A DNA stretch of 64,000 nucleotides from Nitrospirota bacterium (lineage in GTDB: Bacteria > Nitrospirota > Leptospirillia > Leptospirillales > Leptospirillaceae): contig JAJZXW010000021.1 of NCBI GenBank assembly GCA_021806225.1, forward strand, positions 62,001 to 126,000, written 5' to 3'. The notes under the pieces are model-generated. The model was not told the origin of the DNA. It worked only from the letters and a program-made list of their open reading frames with translations, and ran no database searches. Below, piece after piece: positions 5,480 to 13,484 of this stretch (its first letter is position 1; every line of letters begins with the position of its first letter). The translations under genes were made by a program, and so were the position numbers.

Positions 5480-6892
5480 TTGCCTTTAAAGCAGAATTTT
5501 CAGAACAACATGTACCGGATACTGTCCCACCGCATTGCGGAACAGACCGATTCCTCCTTTCTGCTGATCGGAAACGACTACCGCATCCAGTGGATCTCGC
5601 GCCCCGTCAGGAAGCTTCTGTTCGAGGGTGAAGGGACTGTCGTGGGAAAGCTCTGCGCGAATGTCCTCAAAGATCGGGTGTGCTCCGCCCGTTGCCTCAA
5701 GGCCGGGGAGATGATCTCTCCCGCACAGAATGGAAATCCCTTCGGGCCTTTCTGTCTGGAGGAACGACTGGATTCCTTCCAGATCCGCAATACTATTCTT
5801 CGGGATCCGAAAGGATCCTCTGTCGGCCTCCTGAAAATGATCGTTCCCCGGGAAGCCGGCATCCTTGAAGAATCTGCCGATAACGATACGGATCTCGAAA
5901 GCAGCCTCTTCGAGGCGGGAGGGGCATGCGAAACCTCCATCCCCTCCACCCTTTTGCGAGTCGCACGGACCACCATTCCCGTTCTGCTCGTCGGAGAAAC
6001 CGGGACCGGAAAAGAGGTTCTGGCTCACAGGATCCACAGCTTGAGTCCACGAAGGGAGCGGCCCTTCGTGGTTCTCGACCTTTCTGTCGTTCCGGAAACG
6101 CTCGTCGACGATTCCCTTTTCGGCCATGCCCGTGGATCCTTCACCGGGGCAACCGCCGATTATACCGGCAAGCTGCTTCAGGCCGACAAGGGGACGCTTT
6201 TTCTGGATGAACTCGAGAACATTCCCCTCCCTGTCCAGGCAAAGCTTCTCCGCTTTCTCGAGACGGGAATCATCGAGCATATCGGCAAGAATCAGAGAAC
6301 CCTGGTTGATGTCCGCATCCTGGCCGCCACCAATGTGGACCCGGTCAGGCTTCTTAACGAAGGAAGGCTCCGGGAAGATCTTTATTACAGGCTTCGGGGA
6401 ATGACTGTGGACCTTCCGCCCCTCAGGGACAGAAAAGAGGAGATTCCCCTTCTGATCCGGTCTTTTAGGATCGCATGGGGAGAAAAGTATGGCGAACCGG
6501 TTCCCGAATTCGATGGTTCGGCAATCGACTGTTTCGCAAAGTATGCCTTTCCGGGGAACATTCGCGAGCTCAAGCATCTCGTCGATCTTTGCCTGGCCCT
6601 GTCTTCGGATCAGACAATCACGGAATTCAATCTTCCGGAACCTGTCCGAAAAATCCTGTCCGAGAGTCCGTCTCTTGGGGAGGAGCTAAAAAAAACCGCG
6701 TCCCAGGAACAGGAATGCGAGCCCATGAGGGCGACCCTCTCCTCGGTCGAGAGAAAGATGATCCAGAGAGCCCTTGCCGACAATCAGGGCCGCATATCTG
6801 AGACCGCAAAGATCCTCTCCATGAGCCGGATCACTCTTTGGCGAAAAATGCAAAAATATGGTCTGGACAAGAGGCATCCCTTCTCTCCCTGA
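5480..6892 (+). CDS. Sigma-54-dependent transcriptional activator with cysteine-bearing sensor domain
   Basis: NtrC-family activator of 470 residues. Residues 1-150 form a PAS-like sensor region without a phosphoacceptor receiver domain. The sensor contains cysteines at 59, 68, 72, 92 and 150, with C68-x3-C72 closest together. The AAA+ domain follows, with Walker A GETGTGKE (172-179), the sigma-54 contact loop GSFTGA (219-224) and Walker B GTLFLDE (238-244). The C-terminus is a Fis-type helix-turn-helix (GRISETAKILSMSRITLWRK). The start is a TTG with GGGGAG 6 bases upstream; an ATG about 10 codons in is the alternative. The gene is divergent from ccoN, whose promoter is of the sigma-54 class, so ccoN is the likely target. 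That the cysteines sense redox or oxygen is an inference. Confidence 0.9.
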   Translation: MPLKQNFQNNMYRILSHRIAEQTDSSFLLIGNDYRIQWISRPVRKLLFEGEGTVVGKLCANVLKDRVCSARCLKAGEMISPAQNGNPFGPFCLEERLDSFQIRNTILRDPKGSSVGLLKMIVPREAGILEESADNDTDLESSLFEAGGACETSIPSTLLRVARTTIPVLLVGETGTGKEVLAHRIHSLSPRRERPFVVLDLSVVPETLVDDSLFGHARGSFTGATADYTGKLLQADKGTLFLDELENIPLPVQAKLLRFLETGIIEHIGKNQRTLVDVRILAATNVDPVRLLNEGRLREDLYYRLRGMTVDLPPLRDRKEEIPLLIRSFRIAWGEKYGEPVPEFDGSAIDCFAKYAFPGNIRELKHLVDLCLALSSDQTITEFNLPEPVRKILSESPSLGEELKKTASQEQECEPMRATLSSVERKMIQRALADNQGRISETAKILSMSRITLWRKMQKYGLDKRHPFSP

Positions 6893-7283: not shown

Positions 7284-8111
7284 TTGACAATTGCCGGAAC
7301 GAATGGATATCGTCTTTTTCTTCGTTTCTTCGCTTTGGGAAATACGCTCTTCGCCGGCATCCTTTTCGCTATGACCCGCCCGTCCCTTTCGACCCCCCTG
7401 TTCGAGTTTTCACTGCTCGCAGCCCTCCATGCCCTGGTTGTGGGCACCCTTGTCCCGCTTCTCCTCGACAGGTTTAGACGGGATTCCCCATTCTTTCGTG
7501 TGTCGGGGCTCTTTATTGCCACCGGCGACCTGGTCTTGATCACGGGGTTCCTCCTTCACCCCCGCTCCGCCCTTCCGGAGGAGGGCGGTCTGATGGTCAC
7601 CGCCGGAATCCTGATGGCGGGTGTCACGCTTTTCTCAGGATCGTGGCGATTCCTTTACTGGACGGCTCTTTGCGGTGCGGCCACCCTGGGCGTCCTCCTC
7701 GGGGCCGTCCTGGCCCGGTCGGCCGTCGACCCCATTCCCTTTTCGATGATAGCCGCCCATGGAGTCCTGGGGGCCGGGCTCGGACTGTTTCCGCTCTTCT
7801 GGCTTCGGACGGAGGGCAGGATCGCTCGAAAGCTTCCCGTTCTGCTTTTCACCGCTGTGCTTCTCCTGTTGCTCATCCTCATTCTTCAAAACACCCTTAT
7901 CTCGGGATCGATGGCCGTCTTCGCGGGGGGAGCGCTTCTCCTGGCCGGCGCGGGAGTCGGCAGGGAGGGGCGACTTCTTGGCCTTTTGTGTCTCTCCGTT
8001 GTCGGGGTTCTTCGTATTTCGGGCGTGCTTCTTCCGGGGGAATGGCTTTCCTTTCTGGGAATACTACTCCTGGGAGGGTGTTTCTGGGGGTATTTCAGAC
8101 AGGGGAGGTGA
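7284..8111 (+). CDS. Polytopic membrane protein of unknown function
   Basis: A 275-residue, very hydrophobic protein with about eight predicted membrane segments and short loops. I recognise no catalytic motif or family. The start is a TTG preceded by AGGAGG at 7267-7272, a somewhat long spacing of about 11 bases. No in-frame ATG fits better without losing the first membrane segment. The gene ends 3 bases before the stop codon of the convergent triple-AAA+ gene, leaving no room for a terminator. It could be a permease-like or scaffold protein, but nothing in the sequence distinguishes these. Confidence 0.7.
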   Translation: MTIAGTNGYRLFLRFFALGNTLFAGILFAMTRPSLSTPLFEFSLLAALHALVVGTLVPLLLDRFRRDSPFFRVSGLFIATGDLVLITGFLLHPRSALPEEGGLMVTAGILMAGVTLFSGSWRFLYWTALCGAATLGVLLGAVLARSAVDPIPFSMIAAHGVLGAGLGLFPLFWLRTEGRIARKLPVLLFTAVLLLLLILILQNTLISGSMAVFAGGALLLAGAGVGREGRLLGLLCLSVVGVLRISGVLLPGEWLSFLGILLLGGCFWGYFRQGR

Positions 8112-8114
8112 TGG

Positions 8115-11100
8115 TCAGGACGTTCCCGGCGGAGACTGTGTCGCCGCGACAGTCGGAGTCCCTTCGACGAGTTCGAGGCGATTGTCCATGATGCCGACCT
8201 TGAGGACGCTTCCGGAGGTCGGAGAGTGAGTCTGCCCTTCGAGATCCTTCAGGACGGGCAGAAGCATGGACTGAATCTTCCTTGTCAGTTCGGACGCGGT
8301 GATTGTGGATGGATCGACCTGATAGGTGATGAAGGCGGGAATTTCCGGATCGACCTCGATCGTTCCCCTGAAGGGATGTTTCTCGAGAAAGCGGGACAGG
8401 GTCTCGTAAAGCGTCCGGCGGGACATATCGGTGATGTCCAAATCGGTGTAGGCGGGAAACGGAACGATCAGGTCGAGCGCTCCAAGGGTCTCCCTGCTGA
8501 AGACCGGCAGAAAAGCCAGCCGTCGATTTTTTTTGGAAAGTGTGTCAAGGATCAGGTCCGCACGATTTCCGCGGCGAGCGATCTCCATGTCGTCGCCGGA
8601 AAACAGTGACGTGGCGAGAATGAGGGTGCTTCTGGGAACGGATAGAGACTTTCCTCCCGAGGTGATGACCCCCGAGCTCAGGTAGTCAGGGAGAAAATCC
8701 CAGGCCGACGGATGGGCCTGTTCGATGTTGTCGAGATAAAGGACGGCGTCCGGCCTCTCCTCAAGAATCGTGCGGAGCCCTTCGGGAACCGGGCTGGATT
8801 TTGTCGATCCAAGGGGGCGCTGGAGAATCATGCTGGCAAATAGGCGATCCGCATAAAGCCCCATGTCCCGGACCACAAGTCGTCCTTTGCCGGGATCAAG
8901 GTGATGCGCGATGGCCTGCGCCGCCTCCCTTTTTCCGGTTCCCCTCGGTCCGGCAAAGAGGAATGCGCCCATCACGGCCGCTCCTCCCTTTTTGATATCG
9001 TAGCCTGCGGCATCAAGAATGGATCGGATCTCGTCCTGGAACTCGGGACGACCCGGAAATCCCGGAAGGGATGCAGGTTCGGGCGGAGCCATCAGAATGG
9101 CACCATGTTCCTGATGTTCTTCTTCGGCCTCTCCCGTCTCCTGCGGAATTTGCGTGGGTTCGTCGAATTCGGAAAAATCGATCTTTTCTGCCGGAACTCC
9201 TTCGAGAATCCGGCTGAGGGCAAATTCTTCGAGCTCCGAGAAGAGGGATCGACCAAGTTCCGCTAGGTCCAGAAGGGAGGAAAAGCGACGTGCGATAAAG
9301 GGGTCGATTTTGTTGATGTCTTCGGCCCCGCCGATGAGCCAGACACCTTTGTCCTCATTGGCCTGGGCGAGCTCCATCACCTTCTGGTTGTAGATTTCTC
9401 CATGGTACCCGTAGTTGGAGAGCTGAACCTTGGGAAACAATTCTTCGAGAGGGTCCACGAAAATCATTGAGGGACGATTTTTTCGACTTTTCAGAAGCAG
9501 ATTCCGGAATTCCGTTCCGTCAAGCTTTTTGTCATCCGGAGTCATTAGAAATGACACTCCGGCCTGTTGTGCCAGCTTTTCGGCGATCATGCGGCGGATC
9601 GGTCGATTTCTTCCGATAATCAGAATCGATTCGTGGGATTTCTTTTGCCGATTTGAAAAGAGTTCGTTGGCCCGGTTGACGAGAATCGGACCCATCGTCT
9701 GGTCTGTCAGTCTCGATCGGATCACCTCCATAGGGCCGGCCGTCGGATCTTTCCAGTTCTGGGCCTTGCGCCGGATGGACACATCGACGTCAAGCTGCCG
9801 AAGCGAGCGACGCAGCTTCCGCGCATAATCGCTGCTGTGGAGAACGACATCCCGGATGTCTTCCGGCGCAAATCCCTCCATGATTGCGGCCAGCTTACCC
9901 AGGTCGAACCCTTCGATCATGTCGGGGGTCAGGAGAGGAACGTTTCCGGGCAGAATCTCGTTTTTTCTTGATTCCTCAAGAAGAAGGCGGGCCAGGAGGG
10001 ATCTTCTTGTCTCCACATCCGGCAAGGGGACGGAGAGGATCCAGTGGATGATGGGGGGAGAGGTGAACTGTTTCGGAATCTCCTCTACATTTTCGGCCGA
10101 GGCGATGAGGAGATGAGTCCGGTTGCGAGCGAGCCGTCCCAGGAAAATCTGGATATTGTGAAGTCCCTGCGGATTGGTCTGGGCGGCCGCCGAGATGGTT
10201 TTCCCATAGTTTTCGAGGTAGATGACAAGGGGATTGAAGGGCTTGATCTTGAACAGAAAGCCCTTCCAGTAGTTGTCCAGAGCGGATCCGTCGATCGAAA
10301 GAAGGGGTTCGAGGGAGAAATTGTAAAAAGGACGCTTATATTCTCCGGCAAGAGCCCGGGCGAAGATGGTGCGCCCGAGCTGGGAAGGACCGGTCAAAAG
10401 GATTCCGTTGGGAACAGCTCCGACCGTTTTCTGGGCGGATGCGACCTGATAGAAAATTTGCGACAGCTCGCCCTTGATCCCCGGATTTCCTGCGATCTGC
10501 TTGAAGTCCTCTCCCGGCACCAGAAGCCTTGTTTTTGAAACGGCGTTCGCTTCGTCTTCAAGCCCCATGCGAAAGAGCGCGACCAGGGAGAGGATCATGG
10601 CGCCCAAAAGCCACCCGGCGCCGGTTCCCATGCTGATCATCGATCCGATGGTCGCCGAAGACCTCAGTACGGCACCTGAGATCAGGAAAAATCCCCCGTA
10701 AACGATCGAGGAACTCCAGAAATAGATGGCCTTGGGCGCCATCCGGACCGGGTTCGGCTTGAAGACGATATCCCCATCGGAATTTTCAGAGTGGACCTGG
10801 GATGGAATCAGGAGAAAGCAGAGGGCGGAGAGAAGGGTCACCCCTCCGAGAATCCAGAGCGTCAGCGCCAGCGTCGGGACAGAGGTTCGGAAAAAGAGTC
10901 CGGATCCGATCGTTACCAGGGCGACGAAGCTCCATGTACCCACAAAGGGAAGGGAAGGGGGGGGAATTCCCCTGGGGCCCCGCTTCTTTTTCCCGGCTTG
11001 ATAGGGACGACCGAGATTTTTTCCGATCCCGGCCAGAACCGCCGCGTGCATGAGAAGAAAAAGAAGGATGACAAGGGTGGACATCAGGGGAAACTGGTCA

Positions 11101-11186
11101 TTGATGGGGTCTATCTCCCGGCGAAAGAAGAGCGAGGCCGAAACCCAGATGAGCCCGACAAGCATGAGGATGATCGGCTGCAGCAT
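8115..11186 (-). CDS. Membrane-anchored protein with three AAA+ modules, two with degenerate P-loops
   Basis: A protein of 1023 residues. About six membrane segments occupy residues 1-206, followed by three successive ATPase-like modules. Module 1 (about 225-470) has GPSQLGRT at 266-273, with arginine replacing the Walker A lysine, and VIYLEN at 321-326. Module 2 (about 490-665) has GRNRPIRR at 525-532, no GK at all, and MIFVDP at 574-579. Module 3 (about 710-985) has a canonical GPRGTGKR at 746-753 and a ClpB-like Walker B VLYLDN at 815-820. This suggests one active and two structural or regulatory modules facing the cytoplasm. The ATG overlaps the uvrC stop (TGATG), with GGGGAG about 9 bases before it, so translation is coupled. 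The open frame continues upstream inside uvrC, but that part is not used. I do not know a characterised homologue. Confidence 0.88.
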   Translation of the reverse strand: MLQPIILMLVGLIWVSASLFFRREIDPINDQFPLMSTLVILLFLLMHAAVLAGIGKNLGRPYQAGKKKRGPRGIPPPSLPFVGTWSFVALVTIGSGLFFRTSVPTLALTLWILGGVTLLSALCFLLIPSQVHSENSDGDIVFKPNPVRMAPKAIYFWSSSIVYGGFFLISGAVLRSSATIGSMISMGTGAGWLLGAMILSLVALFRMGLEDEANAVSKTRLLVPGEDFKQIAGNPGIKGELSQIFYQVASAQKTVGAVPNGILLTGPSQLGRTIFARALAGEYKRPFYNFSLEPLLSIDGSALDNYWKGFLFKIKPFNPLVIYLENYGKTISAAAQTNPQGLHNIQIFLGRLARNRTHLLIASAENVEEIPKQFTSPPIIHWILSVPLPDVETRRSLLARLLLEESRKNEILPGNVPLLTPDMIEGFDLGKLAAIMEGFAPEDIRDVVLHSSDYARKLRRSLRQLDVDVSIRRKAQNWKDPTAGPMEVIRSRLTDQTMGPILVNRANELFSNRQKKSHESILIIGRNRPIRRMIAEKLAQQAGVSFLMTPDDKKLDGTEFRNLLLKSRKNRPSMIFVDPLEELFPKVQLSNYGYHGEIYNQKVMELAQANEDKGVWLIGGAEDINKIDPFIARRFSSLLDLAELGRSLFSELEEFALSRILEGVPAEKIDFSEFDEPTQIPQETGEAEEEHQEHGAILMAPPEPASLPGFPGRPEFQDEIRSILDAAGYDIKKGGAAVMGAFLFAGPRGTGKREAAQAIAHHLDPGKGRLVVRDMGLYADRLFASMILQRPLGSTKSSPVPEGLRTILEERPDAVLYLDNIEQAHPSAWDFLPDYLSSGVITSGGKSLSVPRSTLILATSLFSGDDMEIARRGNRADLILDTLSKKNRRLAFLPVFSRETLGALDLIVPFPAYTDLDITDMSRRTLYETLSRFLEKHPFRGTIEVDPEIPAFITYQVDPSTITASELTRKIQSMLLPVLKDLEGQTHSPTSGSVLKVGIMDNRLELVEGTPTVAATQSPPGTS

Positions 11187-13045
11187 CAAGAGGTCTCCCC
11201 GCCATCTGTCATGTCCCCGTTCAGGGCCGCCAGGATCTTTCCGGCAAGCGTCGCCGGTATCGAGCATTTTTGCGCGATTTCTTCCGGATCGGCGGCCTTG
11301 AGCGATGCGATCGAGCCGAAAGTCTGGATCAGCTGTCGCTCCCTGGAGGGTCCGATGCCGGGGATCTCGAGGAGCCGCGACTGGGTCAGTGCCTCCTCCC
11401 GCACCTTCCTGTGGTAGGTGATCGCGAAGCGGTGGGCTTCGTCGCGGATACGAAGGAGAAGGTGGGTGGCCGCCCTGTGGGGTGGAAGCAGGAGGGGTTC
11501 GGGTAGCTCCTCGGCCACGATTCTCTCCAGATGCCCTGTTCTGGTCCTTTCCTTTGCGAGACCCATGACCTGAAAGGGAGACGGCTTTTTCCCCATATTT
11601 TTCAAAGCTTCGAGCGAGGCTTTGAGCTGGGGGCGCCCTCCGTCGATCAGCAGGAGATCGGGGAGGGGGTGATCGTCGAACTGCCGCTCCAGCACCTCGG
11701 CCAGCATCCTGAAGTCGTCCTGGCCCTTCCCGTACCGGATTCCGAATCGCCGGTAAAGGGATTTTTCGGGGAGTCCCTCGACGAAGACGACGAGAGATGC
11801 AACAGGATAGGCATCTCCCGTATTCGAGATGTCGACGCATCCGATGGAGCGGGGCGTGGCGGGGAGAGAGAGCAACTCCCGGACCTCGTCAAGGGTCCTT
11901 TGCCGGTCCTCCTGGCTTTTGACCCGTTCACGAAGCGCCTCCCGCGCATTGTCGATGGCAAGCTCCAGCACGATTTTCCTTTCTCCCCGCTTTGGATGGA
12001 GCAGCGATACGCGTTCTCCTCTCTTTTCGGTCATCCATTCGAGGGACATGAGGGCCGAAGGAGGCAGGGCATGGGAGAGAAGGATTTCCTGGGGGAGAAC
12101 CACGGTCTCTGGGGAGTAATGCTGCTCGAGAAAAAGCAGGAGCAAATCTTCCGGTGCCTCTCCGTCGGGATTCCGGAGATGGGCTTCCCTCCTTCCCGAA
12201 ATCCTTCCGTTTCTGATCGAAAGGAGCTGGATCTGGACCCAGGGCCCGTCACAGACCAGAGCGACCGCATCGACAGGGTGGCGGACTGAAAATTCCACCG
12301 TTTGCCTCTCGAGAACCGTGTGGACGCTTTCGATCTGTCGACGGACCTGTGCGGCCTTTTCGAATTCTAGGCCTCGGGCGAAACGGGCCATTTCCGCATA
12401 AAGATGATTTTCCAGGTCCCGATTTTTGCCTTCGAGGAAGAGACGGACCCCCTCTGCCATTTTCCGGTAGTCGCCAGGGGAGACCAGACCGGCGCAGGGG
12501 CCAAGGCAGCGCTGGATCTGGTATTCGATGCAGGGTCTTTCGATCGTTTTTCCAAGATCGAGAGTGCAGGTCGCCAGTGGAAAGAGCTTTGCGATCGACC
12601 GGAGGGTTTCCCTGAGGGCTCCGGGATTGGCATAGGGGCCGAAATAGAGATCGTTTCCTGGTCGGACGCGACGGGTCACGGTAAGCCTGGGATAGGTTTC
12701 TGACCAGGAAAAGCGGAGATAGGGATAAGTCTTGTCGTCCCGGAAAAGAACATTGAACCGGGGACGGTATTTCTTGATCAGGGTGTTCTCGAGGATCAGG
12801 GCGTCGAGTTCGCTTCGGGTGACGAGCGTTTCGATGTTCATGACGCGCTCGGTCATTTTTCGGATGCGGGGGGAGGATGGACGGGTTTTCTGGAAGTAAG
12901 ATCGGACCCGGTCCTTCAGGCACTTCGATTTTCCGACATAAAGGACCTCGTCTTCCGCTCCTTTCATCAGATAGACGCCGGGTGAGTCGGGGAGCAGCCG
13001 AAGTTTTTCCTCAAGGTTCTGCGGAAAGCTTTGTGCAATGTCCAA
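11186..13045 (-). CDS. uvrC: Excinuclease ABC subunit C
   Basis: UvrC makes the dual incision in nucleotide excision repair after damage recognition by UvrA and UvrB. The 619-residue length is normal. Order: GIY-YIG nuclease (about 16-94, GVYLMK...VLYVGKSKCLKDRVRSYF), a cysteine-containing region, a UVR motif that binds UvrB (about 205-240), an RNase H-like nuclease domain containing IGCVDISNTGD, and tandem helix-hairpin-helix motifs at the C-terminus (IPGIGPSRERQLIQTFGS). The start is a TTG with GGGAG 8-9 bases upstream. The stop codon overlaps the ATG of the triple-AAA+ gene, making a two-gene unit. uvrA and uvrB are not in the window. Confidence 0.96.
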   Translation of the reverse strand: MDIAQSFPQNLEEKLRLLPDSPGVYLMKGAEDEVLYVGKSKCLKDRVRSYFQKTRPSSPRIRKMTERVMNIETLVTRSELDALILENTLIKKYRPRFNVLFRDDKTYPYLRFSWSETYPRLTVTRRVRPGNDLYFGPYANPGALRETLRSIAKLFPLATCTLDLGKTIERPCIEYQIQRCLGPCAGLVSPGDYRKMAEGVRLFLEGKNRDLENHLYAEMARFARGLEFEKAAQVRRQIESVHTVLERQTVEFSVRHPVDAVALVCDGPWVQIQLLSIRNGRISGRREAHLRNPDGEAPEDLLLLFLEQHYSPETVVLPQEILLSHALPPSALMSLEWMTEKRGERVSLLHPKRGERKIVLELAIDNAREALRERVKSQEDRQRTLDEVRELLSLPATPRSIGCVDISNTGDAYPVASLVVFVEGLPEKSLYRRFGIRYGKGQDDFRMLAEVLERQFDDHPLPDLLLIDGGRPQLKASLEALKNMGKKPSPFQVMGLAKERTRTGHLERIVAEELPEPLLLPPHRAATHLLLRIRDEAHRFAITYHRKVREEALTQSRLLEIPGIGPSRERQLIQTFGSIASLKAADPEEIAQKCSIPATLAGKILAALNGDMTDGGETS

Positions 13046-13077
13046 AGAGGCGACTCCCGGGATGAAAGATCCCGATA

Positions 13078-13106
13078 TTGTTGTGGGCTTGCGTGTCTCC
13101 TATAAT
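13078..13106 (+). promoter_or_regulatory. Sigma-70 type promoter for the 83-residue membrane protein
   Basis: TTGTTG at 13078-13083 and a perfect TATAAT at 13101-13106 are separated by 17 bases. The predicted start near 13113 gives a leader of about 120 bases before the ATG at 13233. The -10 box with its following GG (TATAATGG) recurs upstream of recG and near 45200. Confidence 0.75.
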
Positions 13107-13232
13107 GGAAGGACGGGTCCATGCTTCTGGCTCATTCAGGACCTTCCGACCTTTTTTACCAGTGTAGCATGGAGAGGGACGGACGGACCGGATCGTTTCT
13201 GGTCAGTTTGTCTGCTCCCAAAGGAGTTTCTG

Positions 13233-13484
13233 ATGGAAGATAATCATGGAATGGATCATTCTCCTTTCCCTGATCCGGATGATCGTCCGGGTGAGAATGT
13301 CCCGATGAAGAAAGAGGAATGGTTCGGCCTTTTGCGGTACTTTCTCGGGGGGCTGTTCGTTGCAGTCTTCTTCTTTTTCATGATGTCCACCGGACCAAAA
13401 GGGGTTCTGGCGGGAGGGGTTTCTCTTCTGATCGGACTATTGGTCTGGGTGGTTTACCGCTTTGTCTTCCGGGAGGTTGATTAG
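13233..13484 (+). CDS. Small two-segment membrane protein, unknown function
   Basis: An 83-residue protein. An acidic, proline-rich N-terminal 25 residues is followed by two hydrophobic segments at about 35-52 (with a run of phenylalanines) and 56-76. The ATG is chosen because AAGGAG lies 7 bases upstream; the frame is open further 5' but has no better start. It has its own promoter and lies alone between the divergent uvrC and the convergent ftsY. I do not recognise the family. The arrangement resembles small subunits or assembly factors of membrane complexes, but no motif supports a specific role. Confidence 0.72.
   Translation: MEDNHGMDHSPFPDPDDRPGENVPMKKEEWFGLLRYFLGGLFVAVFFFFMMSTGPKGVLAGGVSLLIGLLVWVVYRFVFREVD

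Follow-up and report, generated by a model that had tools for sequence, protein, structure and literature searches.

The gene on the minus strand at positions 8115–11186 of the window, the 64,000-nucleotide stretch of DNA from a Nitrospirota bacterium that was analysed, probably encodes a membrane-anchored pseudo-AAA+ scaffold, which docks its partners through the second of three AAA+ modules, and not an ATP-driven machine. Its product brings together three seemingly inactive AAA+ folds of two clades in a membrane-anchored, single-copy and class-universal protein. Pseudo-AAA+ proteins are already known as parts of larger assemblies, and to our knowledge a classic AAA domain and a Clp D2 domain have not been described together in one inactive chain. 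The open-access literature on Leptospirillum yielded no mention of a triple pseudo-AAA+ protein. The class to which the bacterium belongs is probably that of Leptospirillum and its relatives, acid-loving bacteria that matter for biomining and acid mine drainage. If the scaffold reading is true, the class would gain a signature membrane protein with a testable role, and the protein would be a clean test case for AAA+ folds used purely as scaffolds. The gene and its parts are as follows.

8115..11186, minus strand: gene of the putative triple pseudo-AAA+ membrane protein, 1023 aa (orthologs and dN/dS)
10551..11186, minus strand: predicted six-helix membrane domain, residues 1–212 (hydropathy, AlphaFold helices, loop charges)
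9741..10550, minus strand: module 1, classic AAA of the p97/Cdc48/FtsH-like type with lid helices, residues 213–482 (Pfam AAA, profile against p97)
10368..10391, minus strand: degenerate Walker A of module 1, GPSQLGRT, residues 266–273 (ortholog alignment)
9171..9740, minus strand: module 2, AAA core without a P-loop, residues 483–672 (Pfam, profiles, AlphaFold, Foldseek, dN/dS)
9591..9614, minus strand: lost P-loop position of module 2, GRNRPIRR, residues 525–532 (ortholog alignment)
9363..9476, minus strand: module 2 block RPxxxxVDPxExLFPxVQLSxxxYHGExYNQKVxEL, residues 571–608 (ortholog conservation, dN/dS)
8232..9068, minus strand: module 3, Clp/Hsp100 D2-like AAA+ with C-terminal small domain, residues 707–985 (Pfam AAA_2, ClpB profile)
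8928..8951, minus strand: P-loop of module 3, GPRGTGKR, residues 746–753 (ortholog alignment)
8727..8744, minus strand: Walker B of module 3, VLYLDN, residues 815–820 (ortholog alignment; ClpB has DE there)
8478..8480, minus strand: lost Arg-finger position of module 3, Ala903 (ClpB LNRLDEIV versus LGALDLIV)

The 1023-aa open reading frame has no internal stop; its strand, minus, was left unsaid in the initial annotation. Upstream of position 11186 the frame is still open in the source genome, giving a frame of 1241 aa; the relatives keep the ATG at 11186 as their start, with an identical start site in all orthologs, and this conservation indicates that the gene limits 8115–11186 are right. 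Searched against Pfam, the whole protein matches AAA over three stretches (58.5 bits) and AAA_2 at residues 739–894 (45.5 bits), both above cut-off. The initial annotation had taken the order of the domains to be without a characterised counterpart; this holds in so far as the full-length architecture has no named family in Pfam or NCBIfam, but EccC/EssC is a known analogue (PMC11154593). In the full-length AlphaFold model the packing of the domains is of low confidence (pTM 0.38), so that ring formation is without structural support, and Foldseek with the whole model gave TM-scores of just 0.21–0.24 of the query, the domain packing being uncertain; this result was left out of the claims about the assembled protein.

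The six N-terminal membrane segments noticed at the outset were recovered by hydropathy (n=6; residues 2–20, 34–52, 81–99, 109–127, 156–174 and 191–209), and they coincide with six helices predicted by AlphaFold. Helices 2 and 3 are joined by a loop rich in K/R and free of acidic residues, and by the positive-inside rule both this loop and the AAA modules would be cytoplasmic. The membrane domain of the source protein has no Pfam match, and those of the 19 orthologs gave scattered weak matches only, each in 1–3 members and with E of 0.02 or worse. An internal repeat of three hairpins in this domain was considered and rejected, the hhalign scores being little or no better than those of shuffled controls.

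The presence of three AAA+ modules, also part of the initial annotation, is borne out by Pfam, by profiles against solved structures and by the AlphaFold model of module 2. The profile of module 1 scores 52.8 bits against p97. Its Walker A in the source protein is GPSQLGRT, with the Arg in place of Lys noticed at the outset; the orthologs have this motif or variants of it, the lysine being absent in 19/19, and the DE pair of Walker B is replaced by (E/D)NY or (P/T/V)DY. The Arg-finger residues of the LLRPGRFD motif, as found in FtsH of the same class, are gone.

Module 2, correctly described earlier as having no GK, is harder to recognise because its P-loop is gone. An architecture of fewer than three AAA+ folds is nevertheless contradicted by this module, which Pfam recognises as AAA and which matches p97 by profile and Foldseek. 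Taken alone it scores 26.3 bits against PF00004 (cut-off 21.2), and the Pfam AAA match of module 2 alone is seen in 19/19 orthologs; its profile matches VCP-like and p97 chains at about 1e-11. The AlphaFold model of the module (pLDDT 88, pTM 0.82) finds p97 in Foldseek with an E of 1e-8, as well as i-AAA and FtsH structures, and 8xku, the structure of a Ycf2-FtsHi complex, is among the matches. In the model the lid seems to be reduced to one helix. Walker B reads VDP, and R633 is retained near the Arg-finger site, although the module has no P-loop for it to act on. The densest block of conservation in the protein lies here, with 20 of the 30 positions at residues 579–608 invariant against an average of 4.5 per 30, and residues 571–608 are proposed as a candidate site of partner binding or a ring interface.

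Module 3 is related to the D2 domain of ClpB (profile match at 2e-24). It was said at first to keep a full Walker A, and the protein was suggested as a possible membrane remodelling or gating machine; the comparison of orthologs corrects the former and gives no support to an ATP-powered machine driven by module 3. The P-loop Lys is present in 18/19 of them, with Arg in L018, but the residue that follows is Ser or Thr in 0/19; the catalytic Glu of Walker B is Asn in 19/19 (LDN versus (F/L)DE), with the preceding Asp kept in 19/19. The Arg-finger position is variable and never Arg, and the sensor-1 Asn is lost. An active ATP-driven machine for membrane remodelling or gating, with module 3 as its motor, would draw on the Clp-D2 fold and a P-loop containing GK, but it is highly improbable, since the module lacks the catalytic Glu, the Arg finger, the sensor-1 Asn and the pore-loop Tyr in all orthologs.

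The main rival of the scaffold is a nucleotide switch, in which module 3 would hold ATP or ADP without fast hydrolysis and signal to the membrane domain or to a partner, the Glu-to-Asn exchange in Walker B acting as a natural trap. The retention of the P-loop Lys and of the Walker B Asp argues for such a switch, as does the invariant LDNxExAHPSxW block, and the same two residues count against the scaffold, being unexpected if nucleotide binding is irrelevant. Several losses speak against the switch, which we consider unlikely: the Mg-coordinating Ser/Thr is missing from every ortholog, the Arg finger and sensor-1 Asn are gone, and L018 is without even the P-loop Lys. Some AAA+ proteins with odd motifs retain weak activity.

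Considered over the whole chain, the hallmark of active AAA+ proteins, Walker A GK(S/T) with Walker B hhhhDE, is found in none of the three modules in the 19 orthologs, and where p97 and ClpB have their pore-loop aromatics each of the modules shows a gap or a residue that is not aromatic. Within the class and the phylum, FtsH and Clp proteins aligned to the same profiles retain canonical motifs at these columns. Judged from these alignments, all three AAA+ sites look catalytically dead. Three features of a pseudo-AAA+ protein, namely the AAA+ fold, the loss of catalytic residues and purifying selection, are present.

The gene is single-copy in 21/21 genomes of the class examined, in two of them as pieces: in G012 (contigs C44 and C69) and G006 (contigs C244 and C71) most of the pieces lie at contig ends, and these split copies are probably assembly breaks. 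A check on phylogenetic spread, suggested in the initial annotation, showed only domain matches in the other 375 genomes of the phylum, to the Clp domain and, at lower scores, to the FtsH domain. A single-sequence scan of the whole collection gave matches confined to the same genus; the sensitive homolog search covered the protein's own phylum, and the novelty of the architecture rests on that scope. Among the plasmids searched none covers 80% of the query, and the match with the best coverage, 36% of the query at 23% identity, was rejected as an ortholog; it is an AAA protein of Azonexus encoded in a type IV secretion locus. The search for viral relatives found none.

The protein is under strong purifying selection, strongest on module 2. 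Pairwise dN/dS is 0.06–0.10 for the whole gene, about 0.04–0.11 for the membrane domain and modules 1 and 3, and 0.13–0.60 for the linker; at about 0.01–0.05, module 2 is the slowest-evolving module. Constraint is thus greatest on the module with the least capacity for nucleotide binding, and this suggests a role in binding or assembly. The lost nucleotide-binding motifs could by themselves suggest a chance open frame or a degenerating pseudogene, but the probability of this is negligible and the reading is already refuted by the intact full-length frames of 19 orthologs, by dN/dS values of about 0.1 or less and by the identical start site; the two genomes lacking a whole copy still carry its pieces, and a gene present in all genomes of the class is not a decaying one. 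A separate ordinary FtsH gene, with the M41 domain, is found in 20/21 genomes, and so is a separate Band_7 protein; replacement of a missing FtsH or of a missing Band_7 protein was rejected on these grounds.

On its 5' side the gene adjoins uvrC, with which it overlaps as follows.

11186..13045, minus strand: uvrC, constant upstream neighbour (Pfam GIY-YIG, UvrC RNase H and HhH domains)
11184..11188, minus strand: TGATG, overlap of the uvrC stop and the AAA gene start, preceded by GGGGAG, a likely ribosome-binding site

The TGATG coupling to uvrC, called odd in the initial annotation, is indeed there, but it is not odd. Following up whether the linkage is conserved, uvrC was found directly upstream in 20/20 loci, with protein divergence down to 35% identity, and in all 20 the stop and start codons overlap or nearly abut, with a spacing of -4, -1 or +2. 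Three forms of this junction occur: TGATG, ATGA and TGAnnATG. It is ordinary stop/start translational coupling, conserved class-wide. A part in nucleotide excision repair, in which the protein would recruit or control UvrC at the membrane, would agree with this constancy, whereas the downstream genes differ between the source genus and the others; yet uvrC belongs here to a general housekeeping cluster with phoH, ybeY and ftsY, which lie farther upstream, so the adjacency may reflect shared expression only, and UvrC itself looks standard. In E. coli, uvrC shares a transcript with pgsA, the gene of a membrane enzyme of unrelated function, and linkage to uvrC alone is therefore no proof of a repair role, which we hold to be very improbable.

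Downstream, an orphan membrane protein gene follows in the source genus, and thiC-like, 231-aa and metH-like genes, named by sequence resemblance, in the other genera; on account of this difference, the idea of a partner gene conserved on the downstream side was rejected. In the window, the plus-strand gene at 7284–8111, convergent with the AAA gene, encodes a hydrophobic 275-aa protein with a TTG start and no Pfam match, whose orthologs were found in the source genus only (48–80% identity). At 5480–6892 on the plus strand, beside the cluster studied here and upstream of the orphan membrane protein gene, lies the gene of a sigma-54 activator that has AAA+ and Fis-type HTH domains. The conserved 231-aa protein of the other genera, MPSMRLGAPVFFNNIPFQIEERQILREMRIPKK (L038:13762-14457, with equivalents in L034, L036, L037, L039 and L040), is encoded between the thiC-like and metH-like genes. 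On the other side, a 148-aa protein with a hydrophobic C-terminal part and no Pfam match is encoded at 13038–13484 on the plus strand; the gene diverges from uvrC and overlaps its start, and short matches (29–46%) occur at the equivalent place in most other genera.

The scaffold reading is preferred because the motifs are lost from modules 1–3 across 19 orthologs while the FtsH and Clp proteins compared with them keep theirs, and because the pore-loop aromatics are missing and dN/dS is low, lowest in the P-loop-less module 2. Anchored by its six helices, the protein would sit in the inner membrane and expose the AAA folds to the cytoplasm. There the folds may serve as surfaces for assembly and docking, in a ring of their own or together with active AAA+ proteins; FtsH and Clp are candidate partners. 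The invariant block at residues 571–608 of module 2 would be the main partner or ring interface, and the protein would be produced in step with UvrC through translational coupling, without necessarily having any role in DNA repair. A more specific version, put forward tentatively, is an ATP-independent stack of two classic AAA and one Clp pseudo-domain in a single chain, forming class-wide a ring or platform at the inner membrane. This would bring active AAA+ machines or clients into position, and module 2 would be its conserved functional surface.

Modules 1 and 2 share fold and profile with p97/Cdc48 and FtsH, tandem AAA domains with p97 and a membrane anchor with FtsH. Unlike in these proteins, the Walker A Lys and the Walker B DE are missing from both modules, the Arg fingers from module 1, and the pore-loop aromatics from both. 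No match to the N domain of p97 was found, and module 2 is without most of the lid. As in FtsH, an N-terminal anchor precedes a classic AAA domain, but with six helices in place of the usual two, and the protein has no match to the M41 zinc peptidase with its HEXXH motif. Module 3 has in common with the D2 domain of the Hsp100 proteins ClpB and ClpC the fold, the order of motifs and the small domain, and can be considered its homolog; it differs in having DN for DE and GK(R/I/L/M/K) for GK(T/S), in the loss of the Arg finger and pore-loop Tyr, and in following, within one chain, a set of membrane helices and classic AAA domains.

The EccC/EssC proteins of type VII secretion have an active D1 beside degenerate D2, D3 and DUF modules (PMC11154593). 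The likeness lies in a series of ATPase modules behind membrane helices, of which modules some are degenerate and regulatory (PMC11154593). EccC/EssC are of the FtsK/SpoIIIE type and not homologous module by module: the present protein has no FtsK/SpoIIIE match and no canonical module, and its neighbours are housekeeping genes and not an ESX locus. The plastid FtsHi proteins have lost the protease, keep an intact AAA+ domain and are essential in complexes (PMC8197885); with FtsHi and Ycf2 the protein shares the character of a membrane AAA+ relative without enzymatic function (PMC8197885), and it differs from FtsHi in that all three AAA+ sites appear lost and a Clp module is added. EccC/EssC and FtsHi thus offer precedents for degenerate AAA+ modules in membrane complexes, and what appears to be new here is the mix of classic AAA and Clp D2 in one apparently inactive chain.
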